The notes beneath the pieces were generated by a model. The model worked only from the letters and a program-made list of their open reading frames with translations. It had not been told where the DNA came from and ran no database searches. 38,632 bases of DNA from a virus: positions 1-38,632 of the IMG/VR virus record IMGVR_UViG_3300031977_002346. One strand, written 5' to 3'. Positions within the stretch are counted from its first letter, which is position 1. Each line of letters opens with the position of its first letter. Made by a program: the position numbers and the translations under genes. Positions 12,986 through 36,222 of the stretch are shown here, piece by piece.

Positions 12986-13312
12986 CTATTTTTTATTTGT
13001 TTTTCTGATGATGTCTGCCGTGACTTCAAACTCTTCACCAGAGAAATCATATTTTGGGCTGGTATCGTGAGCATCATCACTGATGCCAACTCCATCAATT
13101 GAAGCAATGTTGGTCACACCAGATTCAACTTTTGGATATAATTTTGCTGCCCATTCATTGTGTTGCCTGTATGGATCCTTGTCAGCATCAATATGATGTT
13201 GGCCACACCCACACATAATTTGTGTCTGAATATCTAAATCCAATTCGATGGTTTCGTCATCGTCTTCTGCAAACTCTCCTTGTCTGTTTATTAAATTAAT
13301 GTAATAGTCCAT
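12986..13312 (-). CDS. 108-aa orphan protein with CGCGxHH motif
   Basis: Begins MDYYINLINRQGEFAEDDDE. A CGCGQHHIDAD cluster (about residues 34-44) could bind a metal. The rest is acidic (SISDDAHDT-like stretches) with a basic end (RKTNKK). I use the ATG at 13312 with GAGGATTTAAAATG; an in-frame ATG 6 codons upstream overlaps the previous gene. Last gene before the terminator. Family not recognised. Confidence 0.7.
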   Translation of the reverse strand: MDYYINLINRQGEFAEDDDETIELDLDIQTQIMCGCGQHHIDADKDPYRQHNEWAAKLYPKVESGVTNIASIDGVGISDDAHDTSPKYDFSGEEFEVTADIIRKTNKK

Positions 13313-13313
13313 T

Positions 13314-13862
13314 TTAAATCCTCGGCTCATATATTTCTTTTATTGATTCTATCATATATCTGTAATGGCTATGAAGAATTTGTTTTCTTTCTCTAACCTT
13401 TGCTTCATATCTTTTTATCTTTTCTATATTTTTTGATCTTGGCCATCCTGGTCCACCGTTATAGCATCGATATCCCAAGTTGCCCTTGCAATGATTATAT
13501 CTTTTTCTATATGAAGTTAAAATATGAATTGCAGCATCAATATTCTTTGATGGATTCATCATATCTTCTTTGCATGATTTCATGCTGTCATATTTAAACT
13601 TCTTATACCACCACTTGCAATTAACCTGGAACAGTCCTGAATCTTTTGTTCTGGAATATGCCTTTGGATTCAAGGATGATTCTGTAATTGCTATTGCTAA
13701 AAGCTCATAAACATCTTGATTTGTTTTTGAAGCCTTTTTTATTATGTTGTGGACTTGCTGCTTCTTATGTTCTTTCTTCAGACCATAAGGATCTTTTGCA
13801 GCCACAAAAGAAGTTAAAAGCATTACACTGATAGATATTTTCATTACTTTACTCGTATTCAT
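13314..13862 (-). CDS. exported lytic transglycosylase (SLT domain)
   Basis: 182 residues. An N-terminal Sec-type signal (MKISISVMLLTSFVAA, about residues 7-22) is followed by a soluble lytic transglycosylase domain. The catalytic glutamate is in AIAITESSLNP (Glu61) and the typical SGLFQVN motif follows at about 75-81; the GYRCYNGGPGW stretch matches the later part of the fold. It cleaves peptidoglycan between MurNAc and GlcNAc, so it serves lysis, injection or wall remodelling. The signal peptide argues for a periplasmic product rather than a virion-only enzyme. Confidence 0.85.
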   Translation of the reverse strand: MNTSKVMKISISVMLLTSFVAAKDPYGLKKEHKKQQVHNIIKKASKTNQDVYELLAIAITESSLNPKAYSRTKDSGLFQVNCKWWYKKFKYDSMKSCKEDMMNPSKNIDAAIHILTSYRKRYNHCKGNLGYRCYNGGPGWPRSKNIEKIKRYEAKVRERKQILHSHYRYMIESIKEIYEPRI

Positions 13863-14182: not shown

Positions 14183-16099
14183 TTAAATACAAATATTTTG
14201 GAAGATATTCCTTAATAATTGAGTATATCTTGTTGGATCTGGTGGATAAATGTCAATTAGTCTATCTAAATCACCATTTACAATGTCATCCCACATGTAA
14301 AAATAGACTGGAGATGTGATAATATGTGTCTCGTATGCATCTCCAGGCTGGCAGTCTCCGACTTGACAATTTAGATTATTTGATTGGACTTGCGGTTCCT
14401 GTAGATTGATCCATGATTGAGCAGCTTCATCAGTGATTACAACTATATACGGATATGCATCCGATCTCCAACCAATCCCAACTGGATCTCCTGAATCTGT
14501 GAGAGCGTTAAGGACATCATAGCTTGGCTCGTTTGGTGCTCCATTACAACCTAAGCTTGCGAGAACTGAACTGAATGTTGCAACATCAACAAGCGATGGG
14601 TTTGTTCTTAGCTCATAAAGAAGGTTTGGATTTACTGCATACTGACCTGGATATGACACAAGCGCAAACCTATGTTCTGTGTTTTGAAACTGGCTAACAT
14701 ATTGTGTAATGCCTTGGGCAAGAGCTTGAATGTATGGACACATTGATCCCGATATATCAATTGCAAACACCATATCAACTTTGTCATGCGGATTTAAATC
14801 TTCATCGACCAAACCATCACAATCATTATCTAATTGATCACATATCTCTGCTTGTGGTGCTACAGCTCCTGCACAATCTGACCAAACTCCTGCTGTGCAT
14901 GAACTTGTTCCAACTCGACATTCGCCAATTCCAGCTTGAGGAATTGAGCCACAAGTATCGACCATTCCATCAACGATGCCGTCACAATCGTCATCCCAAT
15001 TATTGCATTGTTCTGGTTGCGTATTATAATAATAACATGGCCCCCAATTACCGAACTCATCACAAAGTTCAATACCAACACCACAATTAATTGGTTGATT
15101 TGTTTGTGGATCTAGAATATTACTATTGCATAATCTTGCTGCGCCGAGAATACAACTGCATCCCTCATCAACTTCACCGTCGCAATCATTATCTAATCCG
15201 TCACACAATTCTGGTTCTGGTTTTGGTGCATCACAATTGGCCCAACCACCAGCACTACATTCTTCAACACCATTGCCGCAAGCTGTGGAGCATCTTCTAA
15301 TTAAACCTTCGTCAACTGCTCCATCGCAATCGTTGTCAGCACCATCACAAGTTTCTGCTTGTGGATAAATTGCGTCGATACACTTCGCTTCGCCATCTGT
15401 GCAAATAACTCTTCCATATTCGCATATGCCAACTGCTCTTGATGGCCCACAATTTGTTAATCTAATATTGTCAACTAAGCCATCACAGTCATCATCAAAG
15501 TCATTGCATGTCTCTCTGGCTGGCAAGACTTGGCCATTGCATGGCCCCCATTTGCCAGATACGCAGAATTGTTGGCCTTTTTTACAGGTTGCTGTATCGT
15601 CTGTTACAGCATTAGGATCTCCTGTCCAACATGCTAATGGCTCAATATCATCATCAACTTTATCATTACAATCATTGTCAAAGCCATCACATATTTCTTT
15701 TGCATCGGGATTAACTCCGCCATGCCTATCGTTGCAGTCGCCATTGCATGTGGTGAAGCCATCGAAGTCAAGATCAAATGGCTCATCAACTGAGCCATTA
15801 CAATCATTATCGATTCCATCACAAATTTCATCTGTTGGGCCAACAAAGCCAACACAGACTTCTTTGCCATCGTCATCACACTCGAACTTGCCAAACTGAC
15901 AAGCTCCGATGCTATACATTGAATTGTTTTTGAATTCTTCTGAAGAGATGTGGTTGCCACCTGGAGTGATTCCACAAGGATAATTAAGGCGACAATAGTT
16001 GGATATACCGCTGTCATCGCAACCTCCGCATCCTGCTAAGAGAGTCGCAACCGCGATTGAAAAAAAGGGGATTAAATTTTGGGAAACCCGAACTCCCAT
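14183..16099 (-). CDS. lipoprotein with MopE-type metal-binding repeats and VWA domain
   Basis: 638 residues. The N-terminus is a lipoprotein signal with lipobox LLAGC (Cys24). Seven repeats of the type E-x-C-[DN]-x-x-D-[DN]-D-C-[DN]-G-x-V-D follow (for example ETCDGADNDCDGAVDEG), as in MopE and related surface proteins where the Asp-rich loops bind Ca or Cu. The C-terminal ~190 residues form a von Willebrand A domain with an intact MIDAS (DISGSM). This architecture is frequent in Myxococcota and Bdellovibrionota and unexpected in a phage. It may coat the infected cell surface (exclusion, adhesion) or be acquired cargo. Confidence 0.85.
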   Translation of the reverse strand: MGVRVSQNLIPFFSIAVATLLAGCGGCDDSGISNYCRLNYPCGITPGGNHISSEEFKNNSMYSIGACQFGKFECDDDGKEVCVGFVGPTDEICDGIDNDCNGSVDEPFDLDFDGFTTCNGDCNDRHGGVNPDAKEICDGFDNDCNDKVDDDIEPLACWTGDPNAVTDDTATCKKGQQFCVSGKWGPCNGQVLPARETCNDFDDDCDGLVDNIRLTNCGPSRAVGICEYGRVICTDGEAKCIDAIYPQAETCDGADNDCDGAVDEGLIRRCSTACGNGVEECSAGGWANCDAPKPEPELCDGLDNDCDGEVDEGCSCILGAARLCNSNILDPQTNQPINCGVGIELCDEFGNWGPCYYYNTQPEQCNNWDDDCDGIVDGMVDTCGSIPQAGIGECRVGTSSCTAGVWSDCAGAVAPQAEICDQLDNDCDGLVDEDLNPHDKVDMVFAIDISGSMCPYIQALAQGITQYVSQFQNTEHRFALVSYPGQYAVNPNLLYELRTNPSLVDVATFSSVLASLGCNGAPNEPSYDVLNALTDSGDPVGIGWRSDAYPYIVVITDEAAQSWINLQEPQVQSNNLNCQVGDCQPGDAYETHIITSPVYFYMWDDIVNGDLDRLIDIYPPDPTRYTQLLRNIFQNICI

Positions 16100-17106: not shown

Positions 17107-17817
17107 TTAATTAGTTGTAACTTTTCCTGTCTCGAAGTCAATCCTTACAACTTCGATTTCTGGAGCATTATTTTCAATGTTTTTCCATTCGCGGGGATCA
17201 TTGTCATAATGTTTAATGCTGTTTAGATCATTTAGCTTTTTGGATTTGCGGTCTTGGTTTGTAAAATGAATGCCTTTGATGTTCAATTCATTTTCTTTCA
17301 CAAAGTCTTCAATCTCTTTTCTATTTTCTGGCGTGTCTTTTCTGCTCGTGACAATATGAACTGGCTTTGTTTCTTTTTTGATTTGATTGATGACAATTGG
17401 ATTGGCTGTGCCTGAGTCTTCCATCTTTAATGTGTTGTCAAAATCAACTGTCACAATTTCTGGCTTGTCTGATTTGCCTGCGAAAGGATCTTCCAGTCTT
17501 GTTCTTTTGTCGAGAGCAATGAGTGTCTCAACTTTATCGAGATTATCTTTGTCTTTCAGCCTTAAGAGTGCTTTCATTGTATCTGCATCGATACCTTTTG
17601 GTGCGACAAACTCTTTACCTGGCTTCATGTCTGCAACTTGTTGAACTGCTTGAACCATTGGCTTGCTCAAAGTTTTATATGTCTTTTGAGCTTGAGCAGG
17701 AGATGCCATGATTCCTAGTGCAGCCAGAGCTGCCAAGAATGTTTCTTTCATGCCTTCGTCTAGCTGCTCCTCTTCCTCATTCAAGTAAGATCGCCAGCTT
17801 TCCATCAATATTTTCAT
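17107..17817 (-). CDS. tagged HAD-like protein with internal signal-like segment
   Basis: 236 residues in three parts. Residues 1-14 are the shared tag MKILMESWRSYLNE. Residues 23-44 look like a Sec signal (hydrophobic, ending SPAQAQ, an AxA-type site). Residues 115-236 are a HAD-like domain: VTVDFDNTL (motif I), HIVTSRK (motif II), then KHYDNDPREW near motif IV. A DFDNT motif fits phosphatases or polynucleotide-end phosphatase relatives. The tag suggests packaging in the head, and the second signal could then direct export. Start backed by AAGGA. Confidence 0.8.
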   Translation of the reverse strand: MKILMESWRSYLNEEEEQLDEGMKETFLAALAALGIMASPAQAQKTYKTLSKPMVQAVQQVADMKPGKEFVAPKGIDADTMKALLRLKDKDNLDKVETLIALDKRTRLEDPFAGKSDKPEIVTVDFDNTLKMEDSGTANPIVINQIKKETKPVHIVTSRKDTPENRKEIEDFVKENELNIKGIHFTNQDRKSKKLNDLNSIKHYDNDPREWKNIENNAPEIEVVRIDFETGKVTTN

Positions 17818-17862
17818 CTCATTCTTTCCTTATAATCACACGGATTACATTTGCTTATCTGG

Positions 17863-18111
17863 TCAGGTGTCTGGATTATCAATATAATCCATGACAGTCT
17901 TTAAATAATCATGTGCCTTTGTTATCTTTGATTCAACCCATTCTTCAAGATCGGTGTCGTCTGTAATCATATTGCGAGTAATCATTGCGAGCTTGGCAGT
18001 TCTGTATAGTTGATGTCTGGCCATTGAGCCTTCTCCGCGACCATCACCTTCAGATATCTTTTCCAACTCTTCTGCAATGATTGTTCTTAGTTTTTGTTTA
18101 CTCACTTTCAT
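17863..18111 (-). CDS. 82-aa protein with KLRxIIxEE N-terminal motif
   Basis: Begins MKVSKQKLRTIIAEELEKIS. This K-x-x-L-[RK]-x-I-I-x-E-E start is common in proteins of marine myoviruses and may be another head-targeting or maturation signal, ending in I-x-E. The remaining ~65 residues are helical and acidic (DTDLEEWVESKITKAHDYL). Start at 18111 with GGAAG upstream; the longer frame overlaps the previous gene. Function unknown. Confidence 0.7.
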   Translation of the reverse strand: MKVSKQKLRTIIAEELEKISEGDGRGEGSMARHQLYRTAKLAMITRNMITDDTDLEEWVESKITKAHDYLKTVMDYIDNPDT

Positions 18112-18433
18112 CTTTTTTGCTTCCGTTTTGTGGTAAAGTTTTCTCAAGATTGAGAGAACTTAACTTATCGTTTCTTATAATTAGTTTTCTTTCTGTATGA
18201 TAGATGTAAAATACTGTTTTTGTTAGGCCAGTTCGGATAATTCTTGCTTTTTTTGTGCCGTTAATATAAACAATGTCGTCTGCATTGTAATCATTTCCGA
18301 GAAAGAACATGACACCCTCGACAAGTCTTTGGATAATGTTTTTAAATGTTAAGACTGCAAAGCCGACAACAAACATCCACCCATATTGACCAAGGAGGTC
18401 GGAAACAATTCTTTCTACTTGTTGTTCCGTCAT
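18098..18433 (-). CDS. MscS-like mini-protein (one membrane segment plus beta domain)
   Basis: 111 residues. A short helix (QQVERIVSDLL), a hydrophobic segment (about 17-31), then a stretch DDIVYINGTKKARIIRTG, FYIYHTERKLIIRNDKL. This matches the pore-proximal and beta domain of small mechanosensitive channels (D-x-V-x-I-x-G-x...G-L...R-x-x-x-x-x-I-x-N-x-x-L). It lacks the full three-helix membrane part, so it could be a trimmed channel or a regulator. The start is coupled to the upstream stop (TAATG). Confidence 0.55.
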   Translation of the reverse strand: MTEQQVERIVSDLLGQYGWMFVVGFAVLTFKNIIQRLVEGVMFFLGNDYNADDIVYINGTKKARIIRTGLTKTVFYIYHTERKLIIRNDKLSSLNLEKTLPQNGSKKDESE

Positions 18434-19071
18434 TAAAACCACACAACTGGATCAAAATAATCCATCATACTAAATACATCTTCAATCTTCGTTCTGTCTT
18501 CTGAAGAGTAAGAACGATCATTTGCAAGGATAATTTTATCATTGCCTAATGCTTTCGCTCTCTTTTCGTTGTAAGCAACATAGCCAACAACTTTTAAGTT
18601 TTCATCGTCTTTGCTTGAAGAAGGAACAATAATAATATCCCATCCCATTCCATCTGCTGGATTGATTATGTCTGGGAACTCTCCGTAATCAAAGGGTAAT
18701 TTTATTTTTGTCTTTCCGCCGAACTTTTTGGTTGTGCCTTTTGGATTGTCTAAATGTATATCTAACTGTGGATTATCATTGATGAAATTAATAACATCTT
18801 TTCTTTTTCTGATTGTTATCTTTTCTTCTTCACCAAGCAATCCCCAATCAAAGTTATATGGAACAATCTTTGCTTTCTTAAAAAGCTTTTTCTTTTCCTT
18901 TATCTTTGGCTTTGGCCTGCAAATTGGTTCACCAAATTCATCCATTCCATTCTGTTCGTGATCTTGTGGACATGGAGAAGATGGTTTGCCTGCTGGTAAT
19001 GACACTCCACCAGCAATGCCAGTGTATCCTTCGTCCAAAAGGACTCGCCATTTATCCAGCAGGCTTTTCAT
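18433..19071 (-). CDS. tagged pyrophosphatase-like protein
   Basis: 212 residues. Residues 1-14 are the tag MKSLLDKWRVLLDE. A Pro/Cys-containing linker follows (about 20-55). Residues 105-200 contain DYGEFPDIINPADGMGWDII, VVGYVAYNEK and GNDKIILA, which recall the D-Y-G...D-G-x-x-x-D and G-D-x-K-I-I signatures of family I inorganic pyrophosphatases. Some catalytic acidic residues appear shifted, so activity is uncertain. It lies 1 bp downstream of the 360-aa tagged gene. Confidence 0.65.
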   Translation of the reverse strand: MKSLLDKWRVLLDEGYTGIAGGVSLPAGKPSSPCPQDHEQNGMDEFGEPICRPKPKIKEKKKLFKKAKIVPYNFDWGLLGEEEKITIRKRKDVINFINDNPQLDIHLDNPKGTTKKFGGKTKIKLPFDYGEFPDIINPADGMGWDIIIVPSSSKDDENLKVVGYVAYNEKRAKALGNDKIILANDRSYSSEDRTKIEDVFSMMDYFDPVVWF

Positions 19072-19072
19072 T

Positions 19073-20155
19073 TTAGTCTTCTGGAGCGATTTTCTTTGCT
19101 GATTTTACCAACATTTTGGCATCTTCAACAGCTTGTCTGCCTGATTTCTTAGAATTCCTGATTAGGTATGAGTTAACATTCTTTGATAACATATCAATGT
19201 AGTTGTATGTGTTTGTGACATCCTGACCTAATTGTTCAATGTAATTGCTAGCAACCCTTTTTAGATCTTCTGGTGAGCCAAATTTTAATGTCCCAATGCG
19301 ATCAATTTGTTTAGCTCTTGTGCCCGTTAAAACTGTTACGGGAATAGAAAACTCAGAACCTTTTACATAAGATCCGCCTTCTTTGTTGTCATCAATATTA
19401 AAATCTCCACCCATTCCCTCTGGAACACCTTCGGTAGCTCCAATAGTGAATTCGTAAAAGTCAATATTTCCAACATCATCTCCGGTTGCTCCTGGAGTTT
19501 TCATAGCAACAAGATATGGAATTGGCATACCATATTTATTAATGCTACCTCTCAAGTCTGCTGCGGAACCTTTGATTGCTTTGCTGCCGCCCTCTTTGAA
19601 AAACTTCAAGCTAACTGGATTTCCTTGATCATCTAAAATATCAGCAATGTCGCCAGTCTCTCCACCTGCTCTAGATTGAGATGCGATAATTTGTTGAGCA
19701 TTCTTACCCAACATTGCGGCCATGAAAGCTTCAAATAGAAATCCACCAGCGGAGGAATTAAAATCATATACAATCGCTGAAAGGATATCTAAGGCCATTA
19801 GCCTTGAGAGGATTGTAGAGACAGCATAATTTTTGCAGACTTCCATCCCTTTCTCGCCCTTACACCCTTCGATAAACTCGTTAACTTTGTTGATTTTATT
19901 TACAAACCCTGCTTGGCGTGGAGCAATTCTTGCAAGAATGGCTTCGATTTCTTTTCTATCTGCTGAATCTGGGAGGCCCCATGATTCTGATATTTTAGGA
20001 ATTGGCAAAACGATAGTTCTTTTCTCAGAACCTTTCTGGATTTTATCAGATTTGGCTTCTTTGAGCAAGCTCTTGTTGCTTTGCTCTTCTGGAGCAATCG
20101 ATTTCTTTTCTTCTTTTCTAAATTGCTTCCATTTGTGCATGTATAAATCAGTCAT
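19073..20155 (-). CDS. tagged protein with PD-(D/E)XK-nuclease-like core
   Basis: 360 residues. The N-terminus MTDLYMHKWKQFRKEE is a divergent form of the shared tag (W-K-x-F-x-x-E). The central region has GGFLFEAFMAAML (a conserved Glu), GETGDIADIL and VSLKFFKEG, an order like the Glu, D-x, and (D/E)xK positions of restriction-type nucleases. The C-terminal helices are of unknown role. If packaged, such an enzyme could attack host DNA at once. The nuclease call is inference from motif order. Confidence 0.55.
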   Translation of the reverse strand: MTDLYMHKWKQFRKEEKKSIAPEEQSNKSLLKEAKSDKIQKGSEKRTIVLPIPKISESWGLPDSADRKEIEAILARIAPRQAGFVNKINKVNEFIEGCKGEKGMEVCKNYAVSTILSRLMALDILSAIVYDFNSSAGGFLFEAFMAAMLGKNAQQIIASQSRAGGETGDIADILDDQGNPVSLKFFKEGGSKAIKGSAADLRGSINKYGMPIPYLVAMKTPGATGDDVGNIDFYEFTIGATEGVPEGMGGDFNIDDNKEGGSYVKGSEFSIPVTVLTGTRAKQIDRIGTLKFGSPEDLKRVASNYIEQLGQDVTNTYNYIDMLSKNVNSYLIRNSKKSGRQAVEDAKMLVKSAKKIAPED

Positions 20156-20167
20156 ATTTTTATCCTT

Positions 20168-22513
20168 CTATTTTCCTAAATATCTTTTCCAAGACTCAAA
20201 CAACATTTTATCAGATGTCTTTCCATTTTTTGATTCATTTGTTTGCTTTGTGAAAGGTTTTTCACCCTTTTCAGCATCCTTTAATAGATCATAATATGCA
20301 TAAGCAGATTGTCGATTCATTGCCATTTGATAAGAGCTTTTGTTAAACTCTTCCAGAAGTCTTGATGCCTTATACAAATCATCATCATCGAAATATAACA
20401 AATCAAAATCCATAATTGGATAAATTCCATCAAGCTCTGGTGACAGTCTTTGTCTTTCTTTCTTTACAACAAAGTTCTTGATAGGAAAGCCAACCATCTT
20501 GCGTATGAAGTTTAAGTTTTCGCGAAGGTCTGTTGTAAACTCTCTTGACCATAATGCCTTTAGAACTTTTTGGTTTTCTGCTGACATCTCCTTAAACTCT
20601 CTGATATCTTTTGTGATTGGAATTCTTTTCTTAAAGGTTACATTGATTTCGTTTCCGTCATCATTGATGACTGCTCTTACCTTGTCCAGATTTTTTAATA
20701 CTTCTGGAATATTTTCCATTCTATTTTTGATGACGCCTTTCTCTTCCAGTTGCTCTCTGACATCATTCATGATAATGTCAAATGAATCATCTGCATCTTC
20801 AAAGTTTCGCGCCCATCTTCTTAAGTCTCGAACATTATATTGGAAGTAATTGTAGTCTGGATAAATCTCTGTGCGATACATTCCATCGTTTCCAATTTTT
20901 GCACCACTTAGAACATCATATCCTGGTCCGAAATGATTCGCCAAAGCTCGCTTTGTTGCTTTTTCGATTTCTTTATCGTGGAGTGCCCAAGCACCTTTCC
21001 CCAGCGAAAATGGATTATCAGGATCAGGATCTGGATAGTCTCCAAACTCTTCTCTTGTGTCGAACGCAAACTCAGTCCGATACATTACCGGCGAGTCTTC
21101 GTTGGCTGGATCGATATCTGCATTAATTGTAAACCACTTCATCGAATTGTTTGCTGGGTCTACAATCTCTGCCACTTCTCTTTCAAATGGATCATCCATA
21201 TCTTGCTGGATACGCCTTTCATCTTCTGGACTCATGCCGATGTCTCCAGCTTGAGACATCAATTCGTCTTGTTCGACATTTGTTAAGTCTTTGAACATTG
21301 CAGCAAAGATTCCGCCATCTGATGTATCTCTGTATGTTCCGCCGTATCTTGTCCACCTTTCATCGGAAACATCATTTGCAAGCTTTTCAATGTCTCCATA
21401 AACTTTCTCTTGTGATTTAAGTGCCCAATCAACAACAGACTTTAGAAATCCTGGTGGAGCTTTCTTGTTATTTTGAGTATACGATCTTGTTTCAGGAACT
21501 GCTAACATTCTTCCATCTTCATCATGAACAAATTTACGCAAACGAACTCTTGAAAATGGGCGCAAGCCAGGAATGCCTCGATCATCATCAGCGAAAATCT
21601 CTTCGCCACCTTGATCTAAATCAACATCTTCTGCTTTTGTCTTGTCAAGATCCACATCAAAGTATTGCTCGAATTGATCGCGAGGAACTGAATAAGCAAT
21701 TGGGCCATGACCTCTTGACTCTGCAACTGCACATTGAAAGTATCCGCCTGTCCTTGAATGACAAGAGCGAATGTCTTCCATGTCTGACATTCTCACAACA
21801 TCAACTGGATGTCTTGAAAGAATTGTAACATATGGATCTTTCTTGGCAAATGCTGCATCAGGATTCTCACGATAGAATTGTGACTTCTCGTTCCAAAACT
21901 TTTTAAATCCTGGAAGCTGTGCTTGGATGGCTTCATAATATGGAGCAGACTCTGGAAGAACAGATGTTAATTTCTTCTCCATAGATTCTTTGTTGTCGAT
22001 TGCTTTTCTTAGTTTTTTATCTTCTGGATCAGTTGAGTCGAAGCCTGTGACAAGAGTTGCAACTTCGGCAGCATAACCACCAGCATCACTATATTCTTCT
22101 TTGGCTTTTTCGTATTGTTTGATTACATTTCCAATCATGTCAAACGCTTTACCAATACGAATCTTTTGTTTTTTTGTAACCTTTTCTCCTGCTCTTGGGC
22201 CTTTTGGAATTACTGTTGTTACATCTTTCTCAACTGTTGAATCATTAAAGTTAATTTTGTATCCGTTGTCTTCAAATAAACGAACAATATCTCCGATTGG
22301 GCCTTTGGCTGGAGATGGAGGAGGAGTGATTGCAATGCGCTTCTTTCCATTGAATAAGTTATTGAACGAATATGCTTCTTCTGGTGCTGAACGCATCCAG
22401 TTTTTAATATATTCATAATCATACTCAGAGATTTCACTAAGAATTTTCTTTCTTAAATCTTCAAGCTCTTGCTCTTGGAGATGCCCTCTCCAGTTTTCAA
22501 ATAAATCTTTCAC
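20168..22513 (-). CDS. large tagged protein (781 aa) with tag-like sequence at both ends
   Basis: Starts at GTG (22513) behind GAGGAATAATT. Residues 1-14 are MKDLFENWRGHLQE. The body is soluble and contains SDMEDIRSCHSRTGGYFQCA (about 245-264) with conserved-looking Cys and His, an acidic DLDQGGEEIFADDDRG stretch, and charged helices. It recalls long uncharacterised proteins of marine myoviruses. The last 12 residues (MLFESWKRYLGK) repeat the tag. No enzymatic family is certain. Packaged status is inferred from the tag. Confidence 0.8.
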   Translation of the reverse strand: MKDLFENWRGHLQEQELEDLRKKILSEISEYDYEYIKNWMRSAPEEAYSFNNLFNGKKRIAITPPPSPAKGPIGDIVRLFEDNGYKINFNDSTVEKDVTTVIPKGPRAGEKVTKKQKIRIGKAFDMIGNVIKQYEKAKEEYSDAGGYAAEVATLVTGFDSTDPEDKKLRKAIDNKESMEKKLTSVLPESAPYYEAIQAQLPGFKKFWNEKSQFYRENPDAAFAKKDPYVTILSRHPVDVVRMSDMEDIRSCHSRTGGYFQCAVAESRGHGPIAYSVPRDQFEQYFDVDLDKTKAEDVDLDQGGEEIFADDDRGIPGLRPFSRVRLRKFVHDEDGRMLAVPETRSYTQNNKKAPPGFLKSVVDWALKSQEKVYGDIEKLANDVSDERWTRYGGTYRDTSDGGIFAAMFKDLTNVEQDELMSQAGDIGMSPEDERRIQQDMDDPFEREVAEIVDPANNSMKWFTINADIDPANEDSPVMYRTEFAFDTREEFGDYPDPDPDNPFSLGKGAWALHDKEIEKATKRALANHFGPGYDVLSGAKIGNDGMYRTEIYPDYNYFQYNVRDLRRWARNFEDADDSFDIIMNDVREQLEEKGVIKNRMENIPEVLKNLDKVRAVINDDGNEINVTFKKRIPITKDIREFKEMSAENQKVLKALWSREFTTDLRENLNFIRKMVGFPIKNFVVKKERQRLSPELDGIYPIMDFDLLYFDDDDLYKASRLLEEFNKSSYQMAMNRQSAYAYYDLLKDAEKGEKPFTKQTNESKNGKTSDKMLFESWKRYLGK

Positions 22514-22515
22514 AA

Positions 22516-22971
22516 TTATTCCTCTGTTTTATTCTTTTCTTGCCATCCAATTGATATAAGGTCATCAGTGATTGGGCCACCCTTTGCCCATGTATCACAA
22601 GTTCTGAGCGAATGGCATTTAAAATGATGCATCCAGCAATATCCTAATTCGCCTTCGCCTTCTGAAACTTCACCTGGCATACACTCTTTCATTCTTGGGC
22701 TAATGTCAAAAGCAACACAATTTCCACACAAAGATTTCTTTGCTGCTTCTTCTGTTGTGTCCCATTTGTCTGCAATCTTTTCCCAATAATCTCCTGGCTC
22801 ATCAAAATTCAATGGACCATACATGTGATTCTCAATTGTAAGGTTTCGGTTTTTTGTGTTAAGTTCTACATCTTGTGTTGCCGGTGGGCATACCATTTCT
22901 TTAGCTTTTTCAATACTAATCTTGACAGCTTCATTAAGATATTTCTTCCATTGTTCTAATAGTATTTTCAT
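22516..22971 (-). CDS. tagged Cys-rich protein (151 aa)
   Basis: Tag MKILLEQWKKYLNE at residues 1-14. The body carries YGPLNFDEPGDYWEKIADKW followed by CGNCVAFDISPRM, GYCWMHHFKCHS and RTCDTW, a set of cysteines and histidines likely to bind zinc or an Fe-S cluster. This block (CGNCxAFDIS...GYCWMHHFKCHSxRTCDTW) is a recurrent phage family of unknown function. Start at 22971; the longer frame overlaps the cupin gene. Confidence 0.8.
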   Translation of the reverse strand: MKILLEQWKKYLNEAVKISIEKAKEMVCPPATQDVELNTKNRNLTIENHMYGPLNFDEPGDYWEKIADKWDTTEEAAKKSLCGNCVAFDISPRMKECMPGEVSEGEGELGYCWMHHFKCHSLRTCDTWAKGGPITDDLISIGWQEKNKTEE

Positions 22972-22972
22972 T

Positions 22973-23245
22973 TTATGTGCCCTTCTTTTCAACAATAATT
23001 TTTAAACTTGTGTCACCTTTTATGATCCTGTGCCAAGATTCTTTTGGTATGAAATATTTCTTTCCTTGTTCTAACATAATTGGCAGCTGATTGTCAAGCT
23101 GTAATTTCCAATTATTTCCTTCGACAAGAGTTATGATTCTATCTTCTCTGTCTCTGTGCCAAACCAATTCATCTCTCGAAACTGAGTCGGCAAACTCTCT
23201 AAGATAGTAATTCTCTTTTATTAATTCTTCTTTGAACGGCAACAT
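22973..23245 (-). CDS. cupin-like small protein (90 aa)
   Basis: Begins MLPFKEELIKENYYLREF. The pattern VWHRDREDRIITLVEG, WKLQLDNQLPIML, YFIPKESWHRIIKG is a short cupin-type beta barrel with H-x-D-x-E and a later His, widely found in large phages. Metal binding is likely; the reaction is unknown. The ATG at 23245 overlaps the stop region of the previous gene. Confidence 0.75.
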   Translation of the reverse strand: MLPFKEELIKENYYLREFADSVSRDELVWHRDREDRIITLVEGNNWKLQLDNQLPIMLEQGKKYFIPKESWHRIIKGDTSLKIIVEKKGT

Positions 23246-23247
23246 GA

Positions 23248-24495
23248 CTACCACCAGCCAGGTATATTTCTGCCAAACATCTTAGTTGCTCTACAGGACC
23301 AATAGCCTGGAGCTGTCTTGTCTTTCTTCTTTGCACAGTTGTGCCTGTCTCCAAAATTCTTTCTTCTTTTGCGAGCTTCTTCGCTATCGCCCATTGCATC
23401 TGGCATTGATGATCCAAAACTAATTTGCCTTACTTTTCCTGATTTTGGATCTCTCACATAAACTCTTGCTCTTCCGCCTTCTGTTCTTTGTGCGCCTGGT
23501 GCTCCAAGCTTAACTTCTCGACCTTTATATTTTGCTTCGTCCAATTCTTCTTCAAGCATTGGATAATCCAAAGGAACAATCTGTCCTTCATAAATTCCAT
23601 ATTCGCCAATGTCTAGCTCATTAATGAAATAGTCTTCGGCTTCATTCAATGTATATTGGCCTGTTCTGTAAAGCTCTCTGACTTCTTGGAAGAGATTAAA
23701 GTATTCATCACTTCCTGGTCTGAAGATGTTTTCTTCAATACCAATTCCATTATCTAAGTGATATTGCAAGCCTTCTGATTTCTTGCCCCATTTCGATCCT
23801 TTGCCTGGTGTGCCACAAGCTCCTGGTGTTGGCCTACAAGATGGATACTTTGCTCTCTTTTCGCCTTCTGCTCTTCCGCATGGCTTGCACTTCTTTCTTC
23901 CTGTTTTCTTATCTTTTCTGCAAGTATTGCAATCAACCCATCCAGATGACTTTCCTTTTCCGCCTTGCCTTGAGAACCAGCCATGAAGACCTGACTTCTT
24001 TTCTTTTGAATAATCTGTTTTAGCTTTCTTCTTCTCTAAAATCTCGTCTTCAATTAATTGAAGTTCTTCGATTACGGCTTCTTCTGCTTGGATGTCTTCT
24101 TCTTTAAGATCTTTCCAAATCTTTCCTTGTCTACACTTTACAACTGCTCCTGAAGCATATGCAGATGGCCAAGTATCGTATTTTCTTTTTGCAATCCTTG
24201 TGCAGCGATCATCTTTCTTTTTCTTTTTGGCTTTTCTTTTCGCAACTTTGGCTGCTCTTTTTTTACCTTTTTGTTGCTTCTTCTTTTTCTTCTCAAGAAG
24301 ATCCGCTTCTGGAATGACTTTTGGTGTTGTAGCTCTTGTGGCAGTCTCAACAGACTCTTTTATCACCTGAACCATTTCTGGTTCGCCATTGTCTGAGCAG
24401 TAATCTGCCCAATCGTTTAACATCTTTTTAAAATCTGCGCCACCCACAACTATCTCAAGCTCCTCATCTGTTAATTCGCCGTCTTCTTTTGGCAT
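23248..24495 (-). CDS. 415-aa Lys/Cys-rich phage protein with GG-leader-like N-terminus
   Basis: Residues 1-19 (MPKEDGELTDEELEIVVGG) match the double-glycine leader pattern of exported peptides. Residues 22-34 (FKKMLNDWADYCSD) are a weak version of the shared tag. A Lys-rich segment (about 65-100) follows, then a DDRCTRIAKRKYDTWPSAY block, a GLHGWFSRQGGKGKSSGW and Cys-rich block (CNTCRKDKKT...CKPCGR), and a C-terminal block with YKGREVKLGAPG, ARKRRKNFGDRHNC and GYWSCRA. These blocks recur in proteins of T4-like marine phages. Function unknown; basic, possibly DNA-associated in the head. Confidence 0.8.
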   Translation of the reverse strand: MPKEDGELTDEELEIVVGGADFKKMLNDWADYCSDNGEPEMVQVIKESVETATRATTPKVIPEADLLEKKKKKQQKGKKRAAKVAKRKAKKKKKDDRCTRIAKRKYDTWPSAYASGAVVKCRQGKIWKDLKEEDIQAEEAVIEELQLIEDEILEKKKAKTDYSKEKKSGLHGWFSRQGGKGKSSGWVDCNTCRKDKKTGRKKCKPCGRAEGEKRAKYPSCRPTPGACGTPGKGSKWGKKSEGLQYHLDNGIGIEENIFRPGSDEYFNLFQEVRELYRTGQYTLNEAEDYFINELDIGEYGIYEGQIVPLDYPMLEEELDEAKYKGREVKLGAPGAQRTEGGRARVYVRDPKSGKVRQISFGSSMPDAMGDSEEARKRRKNFGDRHNCAKKKDKTAPGYWSCRATKMFGRNIPGWW

Positions 24496-24679
24496 AATCG
24501 TTCCACTTATTAATTAGTTCGCAAGTGTTTCTTAAGTCTATGCATTTTGGAACTTCACAGACAGGAAATAGCCCATGAAGAATAAAAACTATTCCTCTAA
24601 CAAGTAATTGTATGCCCATTGCACCAGCAAACTTAAGGTGGCTGAAATAAGTCTCATTGTTTTCTCTCAAATGTTTCAT
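24464..24679 (-). CDS. small membrane protein of the DUF6356 type (71 aa)
   Basis: MKHLRENNETYFSHLKFAGA followed by a hydrophobic region with IVFILHGLFPVC. The Y-F-x-H-L-x-F-A...G...I-x-H-G-L-F-P pattern is typical of a widespread small family of uncharacterised proteins found in phages and marine bacteria. The C-terminal tail is basic (YAKRRRRINR). It overlaps the neighbouring genes on both sides (ATGA at the 5' end, 32 nt at the 3' end). Confidence 0.8.
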   Translation of the reverse strand: MKHLRENNETYFSHLKFAGAMGIQLLVRGIVFILHGLFPVCEVPKCIDLRNTCELINKWNDYAKRRRRINR

Positions 24680-25053
24680 CTTTTCTCCAAACTACAGGGT
24701 GTTCGGTCTATCTTGATCACATTAATTCTTTTGGGGTCGAACATGACCCAATCATCATCTAAAGAAATGCTATCATATCCTGCATCTTCAATTTGCATCA
24801 GCGAAAGCTTATCGTATTCATCCCAGCCAGCAGAGTTATCGACAGACAATTCCACAGTCATTATCCATTTTGAAGAACACGCTCCGCTCTCGCCTCTGAG
24901 TATTTTATCTTTATCTTCCGAAAACCACATAACGCCTTGTGCGCCATAATCTCTGCTAAACTTTTTAATCGGAACATTGCTTCCGTGATAAGCAGTGATT
25001 GTTCTTTTATCTTCCGACAAAAAAGAACGCCAGTTTTCTATTAGAAGTTTCAT
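24676..25053 (-). CDS. tagged ADP-ribosyltransferase-like protein (125 aa)
   Basis: Tag MKLLIENWRSFLSE at residues 1-14, directly followed by TITAYHGSNVPIKKF, GVMWFSEDKDKI and, near the end, GYDSISLDDDWVMFDPKRI. The order Y-H-G-S (His), W-F-S-x-x...(middle strand) and a late acidic/D-P-x-x-I motif recalls small ADP-ribosyltransferase folds. In T4, the head-packaged ADP-ribosyltransferase Alt modifies host RNA polymerase on entry, so a similar role is attractive but unproven. Target unknown. Confidence 0.65.
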   Translation of the reverse strand: MKLLIENWRSFLSEDKRTITAYHGSNVPIKKFSRDYGAQGVMWFSEDKDKILRGESGACSSKWIMTVELSVDNSAGWDEYDKLSLMQIEDAGYDSISLDDDWVMFDPKRINVIKIDRTPCSLEKR

Positions 25054-25367
25054 TAGAATGTCTCCTGTTCTCCATCTTCATAGGTTATGATAGTTTTGTT
25101 TGACGGATGAGGTTGAATATGAACCTTAATAAAATCATCCATTGAATCAAAAACAGCAATACCGCCACGAGGAGGAGGATACAACCAGTGAATAATTGCT
25201 TGTCCAGTGGCCAACTTTGCGCCCTCAATAACAACGCCTTCACCAGAAACACCAGTCTCATCTGACTGTCTACAAACTGTAAATGTTCTGATTCCTCTTG
25301 GTGCTAGTTTTGGTAATGGCTTTGGCTTAAGATCCTCAACTTCTTGAGTTTTTTCTTCATCAGTCAT
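25053..25367 (-). CDS. 104-aa conserved phage protein
   Basis: Pro/Lys-rich start, then RTFTVCRQSDETGVSGEGVV, TGQAIIHWLYPPPRGGIAVF and FDSMDDFIKVHIQPHP. This RTFTxxRxxDExGVSGxGxVxEG...HWxxPPPRG pattern is common to many phage and mobile-element proteins of unknown function. Coupled to the kinase gene by TAATG. It carries no tag, unlike both neighbours. Confidence 0.8.
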   Translation of the reverse strand: MTDEEKTQEVEDLKPKPLPKLAPRGIRTFTVCRQSDETGVSGEGVVIEGAKLATGQAIIHWLYPPPRGGIAVFDSMDDFIKVHIQPHPSNKTIITYEDGEQETF

Positions 25368-26326
25368 TAGCTTCCTCCGAATCCAGGTGGAGCAGATTTT
25401 GATCTCTTCATCGAAGGATCCTTGTCAAATGGGGCTGCTTTAATTTTATTTCCGCCAGTTCCAATAATTCTTCTTTTCATCTTGGAATGACCTACTTTAA
25501 CATCATCTTGAAAATCCTCTGTCATGGCTCCAACAAAAGGAGCGACTTGAGATTTCAATTGAGCATCCACTTTTTCTCTGACTTCTTCACTGGATTCTGC
25601 GTCGTTCAAAAAATAAAAGAAATTGTCGCCAAACAAACCTTCATAAGGTTCTTTATTCTTTGAAACTGCACTCCAAGAACTTTCAACTGATTTAGGTGGC
25701 AATCTTCTTTCTCTAAATTTTTGCCTATCAATTGCTAGTTCTAGTGGGACATCAACAAAAATCATTGCTGTTTCATATCCCATGTCTTCATATTTCTTTT
25801 TGCTGTTTCTCATTTGACCGAAAGCTCCAGCAGTTCCATCAATTATAAATGACTTTCCTTGCTCAACAAGGTCTGCTAGCAAAGATGAAGACTTCTTTCT
25901 AGCAGCAGCAAATATCTTGCCTACTTGCACATTTTTTTCTCTTTTTTCGTCATATTCTGACTTTAAAACCTTTAGTTCGTCTGTTGGTCCCTTGTCCATT
26001 GCTTGGTCAAATAATTGCATTAATTCGTCATGTTTTACAGACTCTTCATCATCTTCCATTTCTAGGATAGAATAGATTTCTTTCTTGAGGTTATCTTTTG
26101 CAGTGCGAGTTTCTTCAAATGTCTTTTCAATATCAAGACTTAATCCGGCATCTTCTAAATCTTTTTCATAGAATTGGTCAGCATTAACAACTGGATAATC
26201 AATTCCTAATGCATCCAAGACTGTGGATTTGCCTGCACCAGGACCACCGGCCATAAATATAATCTTTTTGTTTGATGATTTTTGCTCAGTTAAAAACTTG
26301 CGCCAACTTTCAAATATTAGTTTCAT
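25367..26326 (-). CDS. tagged P-loop kinase, zeta-toxin-like (319 aa)
   Basis: Tag MKLIFESWRKFLTE at residues 1-14, then a P-loop GGPGAGKST (27-35) and a kinase-like fold with NADQFYEKDLED, FIIDGTAGAFG, and FVDVPLELAIDRQKFRERR as lid and base motifs. Similar to zeta-toxin/AAA33-type kinases that phosphorylate nucleotides, sugars or RNA ends. The C-terminal tail (~50 residues) is basic and Pro/Gly-rich. As a putative head-packaged kinase it could act early on the host. Substrate unknown. Confidence 0.8.
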   Translation of the reverse strand: MKLIFESWRKFLTEQKSSNKKIIFMAGGPGAGKSTVLDALGIDYPVVNADQFYEKDLEDAGLSLDIEKTFEETRTAKDNLKKEIYSILEMEDDEESVKHDELMQLFDQAMDKGPTDELKVLKSEYDEKREKNVQVGKIFAAARKKSSSLLADLVEQGKSFIIDGTAGAFGQMRNSKKKYEDMGYETAMIFVDVPLELAIDRQKFRERRLPPKSVESSWSAVSKNKEPYEGLFGDNFFYFLNDAESSEEVREKVDAQLKSQVAPFVGAMTEDFQDDVKVGHSKMKRRIIGTGGNKIKAAPFDKDPSMKRSKSAPPGFGGS

Positions 26327-26643: not shown

Positions 26644-27042
26644 CTATTTAATGTCAATTGTTTTTGGTTTGGCTGCTTCAGATTTTGGCAAAGTAACAAC
26701 CATGACTCCGCTTTTGTATGAAGCTGAGATGGCATCAATATCACAATCATTTGGGATTGTATATGCTTTTGAATATTTAGTCGCGAATGCATAGCTTTCT
26801 TTTTTGTTGCTTGCGTCGTAACTGATTGTCAGTAGATTTCCCTCTACTGTGATATTGAAGTCTGATTTCTCAAGACCTGGTGCCGTAAGATAAATTTGAT
26901 ATTTATCTTCTTGTTCGTTAACTGATGGTCGATGCTGATCTGATACTTGTTTGACTGTTGGTGTTGTCCAAAAGTCATCATATCCAAAAAATCTGTCAAA
27001 GATATCAGTTGTTCTGTTGTTAAATAAAGTTAGTCCATTCAT
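26644..27042 (-). CDS. small heat-shock protein (Hsp20)
   Basis: 132 residues with an alpha-crystallin domain (about 35-125): DKYQIYLTAPGLEKSDFNIT, the LLTISYDA strand, and ...SGVMVVTLPK, the usual GVLxxxLPK motif. It is an ATP-independent holdase that protects unfolding proteins. Strong ribosome site (GGAGGTCATAATAATG). It lies in its own transcription unit, with a promoter (TTGACG, 16 bp, TAGAAT at 27064-27091) and its terminator. sHsps occur in several large phages, often with other chaperones as here. Confidence 0.93.
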   Translation of the reverse strand: MNGLTLFNNRTTDIFDRFFGYDDFWTTPTVKQVSDQHRPSVNEQEDKYQIYLTAPGLEKSDFNITVEGNLLTISYDASNKKESYAFATKYSKAYTIPNDCDIDAISASYKSGVMVVTLPKSEAAKPKTIDIK

Positions 27043-30082: not shown

Positions 30083-31654
30083 TTATTCTTCAACGATTGC
30101 ATAATCAGTCAACAAAAGAGTTGATGCTGCGCTTGCTGCATTCTGAAGAGCACAACGGACAACTTTCGTTGGGTCAATGATTCCATATGTATACATATTA
30201 ACAATCTCGCCTGTTGAAACATCTAGTCCTGACTCTGAGTTTGTATGATTTTTAACTTTCTCAAGCAACAATTCTGTTGGCAGGCCAGCGTTTGAGGTCA
30301 TCTTTCGGAATGGCTCTTCCAAAGCGTTGCGAACAATATCAACACCAACTTGTTGCTCTCTTGTCTCAGCATCAATATTTAATTTCTTTGCTGCTCGCAA
30401 AAGGCAAACTGATCCGCCTGGAATGATTCCTTCTTGTTGTGCAGACGATACAGCCTCAAGAGCATCCTCAACTCGATGCTTTCGCTCGACCATATCAACT
30501 TCTGTTGCTCCACCAACTTTAATGATTGCAACTGCTGAAGCTAGTCTTGTGATTCTTTCTTGAATGGCTTCACATTTCTGCATACTTGTTTCGCGTTCAA
30601 TCTCAGCCTTTAGAAGATTAACTCTTTCTTCAACCTTTTCATCGTCTTGATTGCCGCCAACAATAGTTGTGAAAGTCTTGTTTGACTCAACAGTCTCAGC
30701 AGTTCCAAGATGCTCAAGTTTAACAGATGTTAATTTAATTCCTGATTCACGAGAAACAAAAGTTCCGCCAACAGAGATGGCCAAATCAGAAAGAATATTT
30801 CTTCTCTCTTCGCCATATCTTGGTGCTTTAATTCCTGCGACTCTCATCGTGCCTTTCATTGCATTCATGATCATTGCTGCCAATGCTTGTCCAGAAATAT
30901 CTTCTGCAACAATAATAAGAGCACGGCCATCTCTTGAAGCAACTTCCAAAACTGGAAGGATGTCATCAATTGATGAAATGCTGTGGTCTGTAACAAGGAT
31001 CAGACAATCATCATGCTTCATTACACCTCTTCGCTCATCAGTGATGAATGGGTTGGCCAAAAGCCCTGAATCAAATCTAAAGCCTTCTGAAAGGACAAGA
31101 GATGTATCATTTGATTTCGCTTCTTGAATTGAAATTGCTCCATCTTTTCCAACTGCATCAACAGCTGAACCAATGATCTTTCCAATTCCTTTGTCACCAT
31201 TTGCTGAGATTGTTGCAATCTGTTCAATCTCTTCTCTTGAAGAAACTGGCTTTGCTCTTTCTTTTAATTCTGCAACAACATTTTCAACAGCCAAATCAAT
31301 TCCTCTCTTCATTTCGATTGGAGAAATGCCTGATACAAGATGTGATTGAGCCTTATCAAGAATGCCTCTTGCGAGAATTGTAGCTGTGGTTGTGCCATCG
31401 CCAGCAGATGTGTTTGTTTCTTCTGAAGCTTGTTTAATGACTTGTGCTCCCAAATTCTCAAATGGGTCTTCCAAATCAACAAACTTGGCAACTGTAACGC
31501 CATCCTTTGTGATGATTGGTTTCATCTTGTTTTGCTTGATGATTACATTTCGTCCTCGTGGACCAAGTGTTGTCCCAACTGCATCAGCAAGTTTGTTTAC
31601 GCCGTTCATAATCTTTTCGTTTAATTTACGGCTTGATTCATATTGTTTAGTCAT
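30083..31654 (-). CDS. groEL: phage-encoded GroEL-type chaperonin
   Basis: 523 residues, near full length. Equatorial motifs are TLGPRGRNV, ITKDGVTVAK, GDGTTTATILARGI (catalytic Asp in GDGTTT), and RVEDALEAVSSAQQEGIIPGG. The usual GGM-rich C-terminal tail is missing: it ends LLTDYAIVEE. It folds proteins in an ATP-driven ring; a GroES partner is not found in this window. The ATG at 31654 overlaps the HNH gene; a TTG two codons upstream is less likely. Phage GroELs are known from large myoviruses. Confidence 0.95.
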   Translation of the reverse strand: MTKQYESSRKLNEKIMNGVNKLADAVGTTLGPRGRNVIIKQNKMKPIITKDGVTVAKFVDLEDPFENLGAQVIKQASEETNTSAGDGTTTATILARGILDKAQSHLVSGISPIEMKRGIDLAVENVVAELKERAKPVSSREEIEQIATISANGDKGIGKIIGSAVDAVGKDGAISIQEAKSNDTSLVLSEGFRFDSGLLANPFITDERRGVMKHDDCLILVTDHSISSIDDILPVLEVASRDGRALIIVAEDISGQALAAMIMNAMKGTMRVAGIKAPRYGEERRNILSDLAISVGGTFVSRESGIKLTSVKLEHLGTAETVESNKTFTTIVGGNQDDEKVEERVNLLKAEIERETSMQKCEAIQERITRLASAVAIIKVGGATEVDMVERKHRVEDALEAVSSAQQEGIIPGGSVCLLRAAKKLNIDAETREQQVGVDIVRNALEEPFRKMTSNAGLPTELLLEKVKNHTNSESGLDVSTGEIVNMYTYGIIDPTKVVRCALQNAASAASTLLLTDYAIVEE

Positions 31655-32306
31655 TTCCAAATTTATCCTTTAAAATGTTGTAAAATTCTCTCAATTGTTG
31701 ATCATTGTGAGATAAAAGTCCGTCGATGGTCATATACTTTGGAAAGCCAAAACGATCAAAAATCCACTTATTTTTAGCAATTTTGTTACACCAATTGCAT
31801 TGTGGAATGATATTGTCGTCGGTCATCTCTTTTGATGGGTCCATGTGGCCTTTTTCTAATACAACCTTTTCATTTGTCCATTTGTGCAGAGTGTTTTCTT
31901 TTGCTCCGCAAGATGCACAAGAGTTTTTATATTCTCTTTTCTTGGATTCAAAATCCAATGATGATTCAATCCTTCTGGATTTGTTATAAAAATGATTTAC
32001 TTTGTTGAAGCCTTCAAAAACATACTCGCCTTTCTTAAGGGATCTGCCATTCCATTCGTTTCCATATTGCAAAACTGCAAATCCATCTTGCTTTCCAAGA
32101 TGACGAACCGACTGAATGTCAGAATGAATATTGAATTTTGTTGCAAAATGTTTTTGAACTTCTTGTTTTGTCACAAGTTTTCCTTTGTTCTTCCAAAAGT
32201 ATTCTAACATTCTTGACTTTTGTGTGCCAGAATTTGGAAACTTGATTCCTTCCTTTTTGCAAATTGATGAATCAAACTCCTGCTTCATACGAGAATAATC
32301 ATTCAT
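31647..32306 (-). CDS. HNH endonuclease, restriction-like (leaderless)
   Basis: 219 residues. The N-terminal half (about 25-75) includes a likely winged-helix (KLVTKQEVQKHFATKFN). The C-terminal part carries CASCGAKEN (zinc Cys pair), VVLEKGHMDPSKEMTDDNII and PQCNWCNKIAKNKW. The G-H-x-D...N-I-I-P-Q-C-x-x-C pattern is that of HNH-type restriction or defence nucleases. The ATG lies exactly 6 nt after a -10 box. It may act on host DNA or be a selfish element; no intron or intein is seen near it. Confidence 0.8.
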   Translation of the reverse strand: MNDYSRMKQEFDSSICKKEGIKFPNSGTQKSRMLEYFWKNKGKLVTKQEVQKHFATKFNIHSDIQSVRHLGKQDGFAVLQYGNEWNGRSLKKGEYVFEGFNKVNHFYNKSRRIESSLDFESKKREYKNSCASCGAKENTLHKWTNEKVVLEKGHMDPSKEMTDDNIIPQCNWCNKIAKNKWIFDRFGFPKYMTIDGLLSHNDQQLREFYNILKDKFGND

Positions 32307-35610: not shown

Positions 35611-36222
35611 CTATTTCGATTTTGATTCTTTAATAAGTCTTCTAACAACTCTTTGGAAAATTGCTTTTTTGACTTCGTTAACCAATTCTTCTTTAGATTT
35701 TTGCTCGATGTCGATGTTAAGGCCAGAAAGAGCAGCTTCGTAAAGCTCTTCCATTACTTCTTCGCCTTCCATCAAGTCAGCGTCCATTGGAGGCATTTCT
35801 TCTTCTTCAGCCTCTTCTTCTTCGCCTTCTTCCGCAGCTTCTTCTTCAGCCTCTTCAGCTTCTGGTTCTTCGCCAGCCATTGCGTCTTCAAGTTTTGCAA
35901 CAACTTCATCAGCAGCATTGTGTGCATCGATTAGAGCTTCGGCTTCGTCGTCAGAAATAGTTACTTCTTCAGCAGCTTCGTCAGTTGGAGCTTCGTCTGG
36001 CATTTCGATTTCAGCTTCTTCAGCTTCCATCTCATCCTCTTGTTCTTCCATCTTGTCTGGGTGCATACCTTCTTTATAGTTGCCCATCTCGTTCATTTCT
36101 TCTTCTTCCATTTTGTAAGTTTCGTTTACGAAACCATCTGAAAGAGTGTCAATAGAAGCGAGCTTCATGAAACGGCGAACTGTGTTTTCGGCAAGAATTG
36201 GTTTTTTAGTGTTTTTGGACAT
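35611..36222 (-). CDS. acidic scaffold/core-like protein (203 aa)
   Basis: N-terminus KKPILAENTVRRFMKLASID, then a very acidic low-complexity middle (Glu/Ala/Pro runs, about 60-150), and a C-terminal helix with VVRRLIKESKSK. Proteins of this build, with the L-A-E-N-[TV]-x-R-R-F-M-K-L-A start, are common near capsid genes of T4-like phages and fit a prohead core or scaffold. Strong ribosome site (TTAAGGAGAAATAATC). The N-terminal LAEN..RRFM partly resembles the shared tag. Confidence 0.75.
   Translation of the reverse strand: MSKNTKKPILAENTVRRFMKLASIDTLSDGFVNETYKMEEEEMNEMGNYKEGMHPDKMEEQEDEMEAEEAEIEMPDEAPTDEAAEEVTISDDEAEALIDAHNAADEVVAKLEDAMAGEEPEAEEAEEEAAEEGEEEEAEEEEMPPMDADLMEGEEVMEELYEAALSGLNIDIEQKSKEELVNEVKKAIFQRVVRRLIKESKSK

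Follow-up and report, generated by a model that had tools for sequence, protein, structure and literature searches.

The IMG/VR virus record IMGVR_UViG_3300031977_002346 was analysed over positions 1 to 38,632 (38,632 bases, hereafter the window), a fragment that has no head module. Six genes on its minus strand, lying between positions 17107 and 26326, start with a shared 14-residue peptide, MK-h-h-h-[ED]-x-W-[RK]-x-[YFHL]-L-x-E, here called the W-tag. The W-tag is very probably a lineage-specific analogue of the T4 capsid-targeting sequence (CTS), that is, a capsid-targeting propeptide of a T4-superfamily phage lineage, whose carriers would be packaged, cleaved, and ejected. An initial annotation of the window had already proposed a T4-CTS-like, gp21-cleaved head-packaging signal, and this proposal is supported by the placement and glutamate specificity of the [LI]xE motif, the end of conservation past residue 14, the co-occurrence of a gp21-type protease, the presence of tagged genes at prohead-core positions, and the similarity of the tag to a capsid-propeptide site.

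The shared N-terminal peptide

All six N-termini singled out in the initial annotation were found at their genes on the minus strand, and each ends in L-x-E as claimed (LNE, LDE, LQE, LNE, LSE, and LTE). Of the 634 candidate N-termini in the window, 7 matched a looser motif, M.{4,8}W[RK].[FYHL][LIVR].E; residue-shuffled N-termini gave a mean of 0.026. Scans beyond the window, the counts of which are lower bounds, gave at least 296 distinct tagged proteins, and these were grouped into at least 120 body families by single linkage at E 1e-3, a setting on which the family count depends. As with a CTS, a short N-terminal peptide is common to otherwise unrelated proteins.

Conservation and cleavage motif

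When tag columns were left out one at a time, retention was 95% for W8, 92% for Y/F11, 93% for L/I/V12, and 86% for E14, and residue 13 was the most variable. The cleavage motif was assessed independently on the unbiased part of the scan, in which tags were chosen on residues 1–9 only (n = 147 among the matches listed, to which the counts out of 147 refer). [LI]xE was located at residues 12–14 in 100 of the 147 tags and in at most 12 at any other start, and residue 14 was E in 113 and D in none. In 12 of the remaining 47 tags, [LI]xE was found one residue later (0–2 at other offsets), a one-residue insertion having caused the motif to be re-created there. Like a CTS, the tag ends in the gp21 cleavage motif [LI]-x-E. 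At the nucleotide level, information was low upstream of the ATG, there was synonymous change inside the tag, and information fell after codon 14; conservation therefore stops where a gp21-type protease would cut.

The nucleotide data bear on the explanation that the genes share a mobile or recombining DNA element, or a translation-initiation element, at the 5' end, and that the peptide has no function of its own. Near-identical 26-nt tag DNA is repeated in many genes of some genomes (G010, G012, G019, and G021), which favours such an element, but the residues hold while codons vary synonymously, the DNA upstream shows no conservation, and the W core persists in divergent tags though both the DNA and the upstream residues change. 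A DNA or translation element was rejected on the codon-level analysis, and the chance we leave to this explanation is negligible.

The motif counts also bear on the proposal that the tag is a core-binding packaging signal that usually stays uncleaved, with the conserved glutamate as part of the binding surface. It would suit the 17 of 147 N-terminal copies that have no [LIV]xE within residues 10–20 and the C-terminal copies without the cleavage motif (see below, Tagged genes of the window), and T4 targeting and processing residues are separable (PMC9026906). D, however, replaces E in 0 of 147 tags, and where an insertion is present the E shifts together with the [LI] two residues before it, as for a protease site. 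An uncleaved signal is thus considered very unlikely.

Prohead protease and head genes

Orthologues of the same tagged cluster were found on the contigs G001 (76 kb) and G002 (157 kb, near-complete). G002 belongs to a T4-superfamily phage, with the gp23-type major capsid protein, scaffold, gp21-type protease, portal, and large terminase in T4 order. A search for a gp21-like protease, suggested in the initial annotation, was positive in close relatives: Peptidase_S77 (PF03420, the gp21 family) was detected in 10 of 10 tagged contigs in which the portal-protease interval is present (E 1e-24 to 1e-36), and in all eight pattern-selected tagged contigs of at least 139 kb. As expected for a CTS, a gp21-family prohead protease is therefore encoded in the same phage as the tag. 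Fourteen tagged contigs without Peptidase_S77 were considered as counter-evidence and rejected as such: 12 have no T4 portal either, and in the remaining two, G017 and G019, the portal is so near the contig end that the protease would fall outside. Four of the 14 carry gp23.

In T4, the gp67 and gp68 genes lie between the portal and protease genes. In G010, one W-tagged gene is located between portal and protease and another directly after the protease. In G002, adjacent similar proteins were also observed between the scaffold and protease genes (69975–71229); they have GNVGSYQVSG close to their start and NWSGSxGVG at their end.

A tag profile was run across the whole G002 genome, and real tags ranked first. 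Among untagged proteins, the top window was in the major capsid protein (LLENQAKELLRE-A), at a conserved predicted maturation site, and another window of the same propeptide ranked ninth. Column-permuted tag profiles put the capsid-protein site at rank 1 in 2 of 200 trials. From its top profile rank, the predicted maturation site of the capsid protein is therefore the nearest look-alike of the tag in the G002 genome, and this likeness may reflect mimicry. The capsid proteins of seven W-tag phages have a conserved LL[RK]E near residue 59, which we take as the counterpart of the T4 gp23 propeptide cut. The T4 gp23 sequence at the cut site reads FLTE-A. In T4, this cut removes a 65-residue propeptide (PMC9026906).

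The head-gene results have to be set against the possibility that the tag is a docking peptide for some other shared partner (the host membrane, a replication or takeover complex, the tail or baseplate) and that the terminal LxE is incidental. The tag does have the look of a short amphipathic helix, and among the bodies are enzymes that look host-directed; glutamate-free C-terminal copies are conserved in one family (the 781-residue proteins described below), so binding can matter without cleavage. Docking elsewhere leaves unexplained, however, why [LI]xE sits where it does, why it is specific for E and comes back after a one-residue insertion, and why conservation ceases at residue 14; equally unexplained are the tagged genes beside portal and protease and the top match to the capsid propeptide. 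We regard it as unlikely.

Spread of the tag and tagged protein bodies

The initial annotation had recommended that the tag be sought in related phages, where it proved to be widespread. With a degenerate DNA pattern, at least 120 IMG/VR loci and at least 155 tagged open reading frames (ORFs) were recovered, up to five per locus, and up to 11 W-tag matches were found in one contig. The W-tag pattern gave 2 matches over 84,980 bacterial and archaeal genomes, both in phage-like sequence with further tag-like ORFs nearby, which ruled out a general bacterial N-terminal motif. In a putatively chromosomal contig of a candidate WOR-3 metagenome-assembled genome (L228, CP070664.1), a W-tagged gene lies beside a second tag-like ORF, which suggests an integrated or mis-assembled T4-like phage. 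A core-pattern search of the phages immuto, Mel-JY01, RM378, Melnitz-3, and T4 identified no W-tag isolate (RM378 gave 2 matches, and the reversed pattern gave 1 in Mel-JY01). The tag strings were not found in the literature searched.

Tagged bodies annotated with Pfam include NUDIX, protein kinase, GNAT, GDSL lipase, M23 peptidase, RNase T-type exonuclease, guanylate kinase, AAA_33, and HAD, and the majority of the body families have no annotation. The body behind the tag is modular: the HAD-like protein 17107 is a single fusion in the window and corresponds in G001 and G002 to two proteins, a W-tagged HAD and a separate domain with a second type of tag (see below). Among 111 proteins homologous to tagged bodies but without the strict tag, 55 keep the W core in divergent form behind an altered front part and 5 have the second tag type; the rest have other leaders or none.

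Tagged genes of the window

All features given in this section as tags are on the minus strand. The HAD-like protein 17107–17817 starts with MKILMESWRSYLNE (17776..17817), with a predicted cut after E14; its orthologues have MKLLLEKWKRFLNE (L005) and MKLLIETWRRFTNE (L004). Protein 18433–19071, which contains a DYGEFPDxINPADGMGWDxII core, starts with MKSLLDKWRVLLDE (19030..19071); a body homologue (L038/L246) starts with MKLLLENWRKFLNE and the L004 orthologue with MEHLLKKWHKYIIKE. The ADP-ribosyltransferase-like protein 24676–25053, for which the fold evidence is weak, starts with MKLLIENWRSFLSE (25012..25053), and the P-loop kinase/zeta-toxin-like protein 25367–26326 with MKLIFESWRKFLTE (26285..26326; orthologue, MKLLMESWRKYLNE). 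The Cys-rich protein 22516–22971 carries MKILLEQWKKYLNE (22930..22971); its start is the ATG at 22971, and the ORF caller extends it to a TTG at 22995. A tagless homologue of this protein is encoded at 13051–13785 of the actinophage DSL-LC01 (L143), where it is annotated as 'high potential iron-sulfur protein'. The gene lies in the head module of that unrelated phage, just upstream of the capsid maturation protease genes and the major capsid protein, which suggests that the homologue is a head protein there too.

Of the unrelated folds assigned in the initial annotation, the kinase was confirmed (PF06414, E 8e-13), HAD rests on motifs and weak profile matches, an ADP-ribosyltransferase is suggested, and the pyrophosphatase-like assignment was not confirmed. 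AlphaFold models of 24676 (pLDDT 57) and 19073 (pLDDT 34) were too poor for fold assignment. Foldseek matches of 24676 were mostly ADP-ribosyltransferases and not significant (best E 0.24). The function labels of 24676 (ADP-ribosyltransferase-like), 18433, and 19073 are tentative.

Two further copies, described in the initial annotation as divergent (19073) and weak (23248), are genuine: better versions are present in the orthologues from related contigs. The divergent tag of protein 19073–20155 is MTDLYMHKWKQFRKEE (20108..20155), and in alignment the W core is kept with two orthologues, MNDYMNHKWKNFLVEE and MSDYSYKKWRGWLEQ; no relatives were found in IMG/VR besides these two. In protein 23248–24495, the weak copy FKKMLNDWADYCSD is internal (24391..24432), behind a double-glycine-leader-like N-terminus, and at the same site the L005 orthologue reads ILEGWRRHVNEEE and the L004 orthologue has an IIxEE-like sequence. 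The start of this protein (window 24439–24495; L005 7658; L004 7253) resembles a double-glycine bacteriocin leader, GELTDEELEIVVGG, directly before the tag, with a weak NCBIfam CTB-bacteriocin match (E 0.023). If the leader were cut after GG, the tag would be exposed as a new N-terminus. A scan of IMG/VR with the double-glycine leader pattern gave two matches, both unrelated, so the leader is apparently limited to this phage group.

Three features had been overlooked in the initial annotation: a C-terminal copy on 20168–22513, the second tag type on 17863–18111, and the spread of the tag beyond this phage. The 781-residue protein 20168–22513 has a GTG start and the N-terminal tag MKDLFENWRGHLQE (22472..22513), and it ends in the copy MLFESWKRYLGK-stop (20171..20206), which is without the cleavage glutamate. 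In this family, a C-terminal W core without glutamate was present in 20 of 23 members, even where the N-terminus differs in kind.

Elsewhere in the window, a 638-residue predicted lipoprotein (14183–16099) has CDGxDNDCDGxVDE repeats followed by a von Willebrand A-like region. A full-length GroEL-like chaperonin (30083–31660) and an Hsp20-like protein (26644–27042) are also encoded. All three are conserved in G002.

Second tag and other recurrent N-termini

The second tag, MKhTKxxLKxIIKEEL (longer form MKhTKxxLKxIIKEELxxxLxE), is represented in the window by MKVSKQKLRTIIAE(EL) (MKVSKQKLRTIIAEEL) at 18070..18111, minus strand, in protein 17863–18111. It occurs many times in relatives (in G002 at 7476, 71897, 73555, 82029, and 86065), and its genes include ones flanking the portal and protease. 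Among 117 N-termini chosen on residues 1–12 only, residue 14 was E in 112, which puts the [LIV]xE of this tag at the same 12–14 position; about half have a further [LIV]xE at 19–22. The second tag is also found at C-termini, for example in a G004 protein ending ISKERLQEIIKEEIDNRKKMM. A W-tagged protein of G010 and a second-tag protein of G004, the latter encoded beside the protease, are homologues (27% over 166 residues, E 6e-10). The two tags can replace each other, since these homologues carry different ones.

A third N-terminal pattern that recurs consists of [LI]L-x-E and then RRMMxLAxI (PLLNEGTIRRMMRLAEI, QILSEQFRRMQKLAGIITE), and it also contains [LI]xE. It was observed in the window (35611–36222), in G002 (25021–25632), and in immuto (25061 and 111675).

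Proposed mechanism and significance

In the proposed mechanism, the amphipathic N-terminal segment (L3/L4, W8, Y/F11) would bind the prohead core, possibly as a mimic of part of the propeptide of the major capsid protein, and any protein bearing the W-tag would be built into the prohead. The gp21-type (Peptidase_S77) protease would cut after [LI]-x-E, normally at E14, so that the cargo would be free in the head and a short peptide released. With the same 14 residues attached to many unrelated enzymes, the phage could load them all, and after infection the DNA would be accompanied into the host by the cargo. The variety of bodies that occurs naturally would fit a tag that suffices for packaging a foreign protein. 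A broader model is put forward tentatively, at somewhat less than an even chance: in uncultured T4-superfamily phages, the W-tag, the second tag (IIxEE-tag), and others in related lineages would form a limited repertoire of head-address peptides that can stand in for one another, work at either terminus, and copy the part of the capsid propeptide responsible for core binding and cleavage. Dozens of effector enzymes would be swapped in the ejected cargo, N-terminal copies being cleaved and C-terminal copies serving for binding only.

Several points weigh against a capsid-targeting role. Virion proteomics of any W-tag phage was not found, and no W-tag isolate was recovered by tblastn with the HAD fusion as query or with a 20-residue tag query of low power. 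The likeness to the T4 CTS is a pattern over seven residues, for which homology is not demonstrable from sequence. The protease was detected in relatives, the window itself being a fragment without the head module. The C-terminal copy usually has no glutamate and may have another role or be retained; the 17 N-terminal copies without [LIV]xE count in the same direction. One residue-1–9 match, to a portal protein, appears to have arisen by chance, and M23 peptidase and endolysin-like tagged bodies are unexpected as head cargo.

Head-carried phage proteins are normally learned only through virion proteomics of cultured phages. If the W-tag is a CTS, what is carried in the head could be read from sequence for a large group of uncultured T4-like phages. 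The at least 120 families, mostly of unknown function, would then be candidates for effectors that act in the first minute, in takeover or counter-defence; among them are kinase, NUDIX, ADP-ribosyltransferase-like, acetyltransferase, and exonuclease members. Loading of proteins into phage heads could also be attempted with the tag as a new, short packaging peptide, and the tag offers a concrete hypothesis for packaging peptides, namely imitation of the propeptide of the capsid protein.

Comparison with known systems

Like the T4 CTS (IPI, IPII, and IPIII) and the Alt propeptide, the W-tag is a short N-terminal peptide on unrelated proteins (head-internal ones in T4) that ends in the gp21 motif L/I-x-E, and the W-tag phages have a T4-type portal, gp23, and gp21-type protease. 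One tagged protein of the window is ADP-ribosyltransferase-like, and T4 Alt is itself an ADP-ribosyltransferase. T4 IPII and IPIII start with MKTYQEFIAE; the pattern shared with the W-tag is aromatic-x-x-aromatic-[IL]-x-E, which is too short for a homology test. In T4 CTS mutants, targeting was determined mainly by residues 4 and 7 and processing by residues 8 and 10, and Asp at 10 blocked processing (PMC9026906). When aligned at the glutamate, T4 CTS residues 4, 7, 8, and 10 correspond to W8, Y/F11, L12, and E14 of the W-tag. The targeting positions (4 and 7 of IPIII) are thus occupied by hydrophobic or aromatic residues, W8 in 95% and Y/F11 in 92%, a correspondence that rests on the glutamate alignment. 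Unlike the T4 CTS, the W-tag has 14 instead of about 10 residues, W in place of Y, an extra LLxEN front part, C-terminal copies, and a second interchangeable tag type. A single phage also has many carriers of it (one contig has as many as 11 matches), whereas T4 has four.

Homologues of the 25367 kinase in isolated T4-like phages have, ahead of the same P-loop domain, short leaders that end in LxE: Methylophilales phage Melnitz-3 has MKTFAELQE-G and Pelagibacter phage HTVC008M has MIPFILKE-G. In SPN3US and phiKZ, N-terminal propeptides of head proteins are cut C-terminal to Glu by the prohead protease, and diverged paralogues have identical 15-residue N-termini (PMC5694885). The cut after Glu is like that predicted after E14 of the W-tag. 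Unlike the W-tag, several of these propeptides are longer than 100 residues, the cut is at A-x-E in SPN3US and the motif is S-x-E in phiKZ, and the shared N-terminus is carried by paralogues, not by unrelated proteins.

The Flavobacterium phage immuto (L251–L258) is a cultured T4-superfamily relative, the protease of which is 52% identical to that of G002. Four otherwise different FDLKKFLVENKLT proteins of immuto (genes at genome positions 1803, 103806, 117631, and 118632) share the N-terminus FDLKKFLVENKLTxNSxxLKE, mostly ending in [LI]xE. Compared with the W-tag, this N-terminus differs in sequence, is longer, and has fewer carriers; it is possibly a capsid-targeting tag of its own. Lineage-specific capsid-targeting peptides may be a general habit of T4-superfamily phages.

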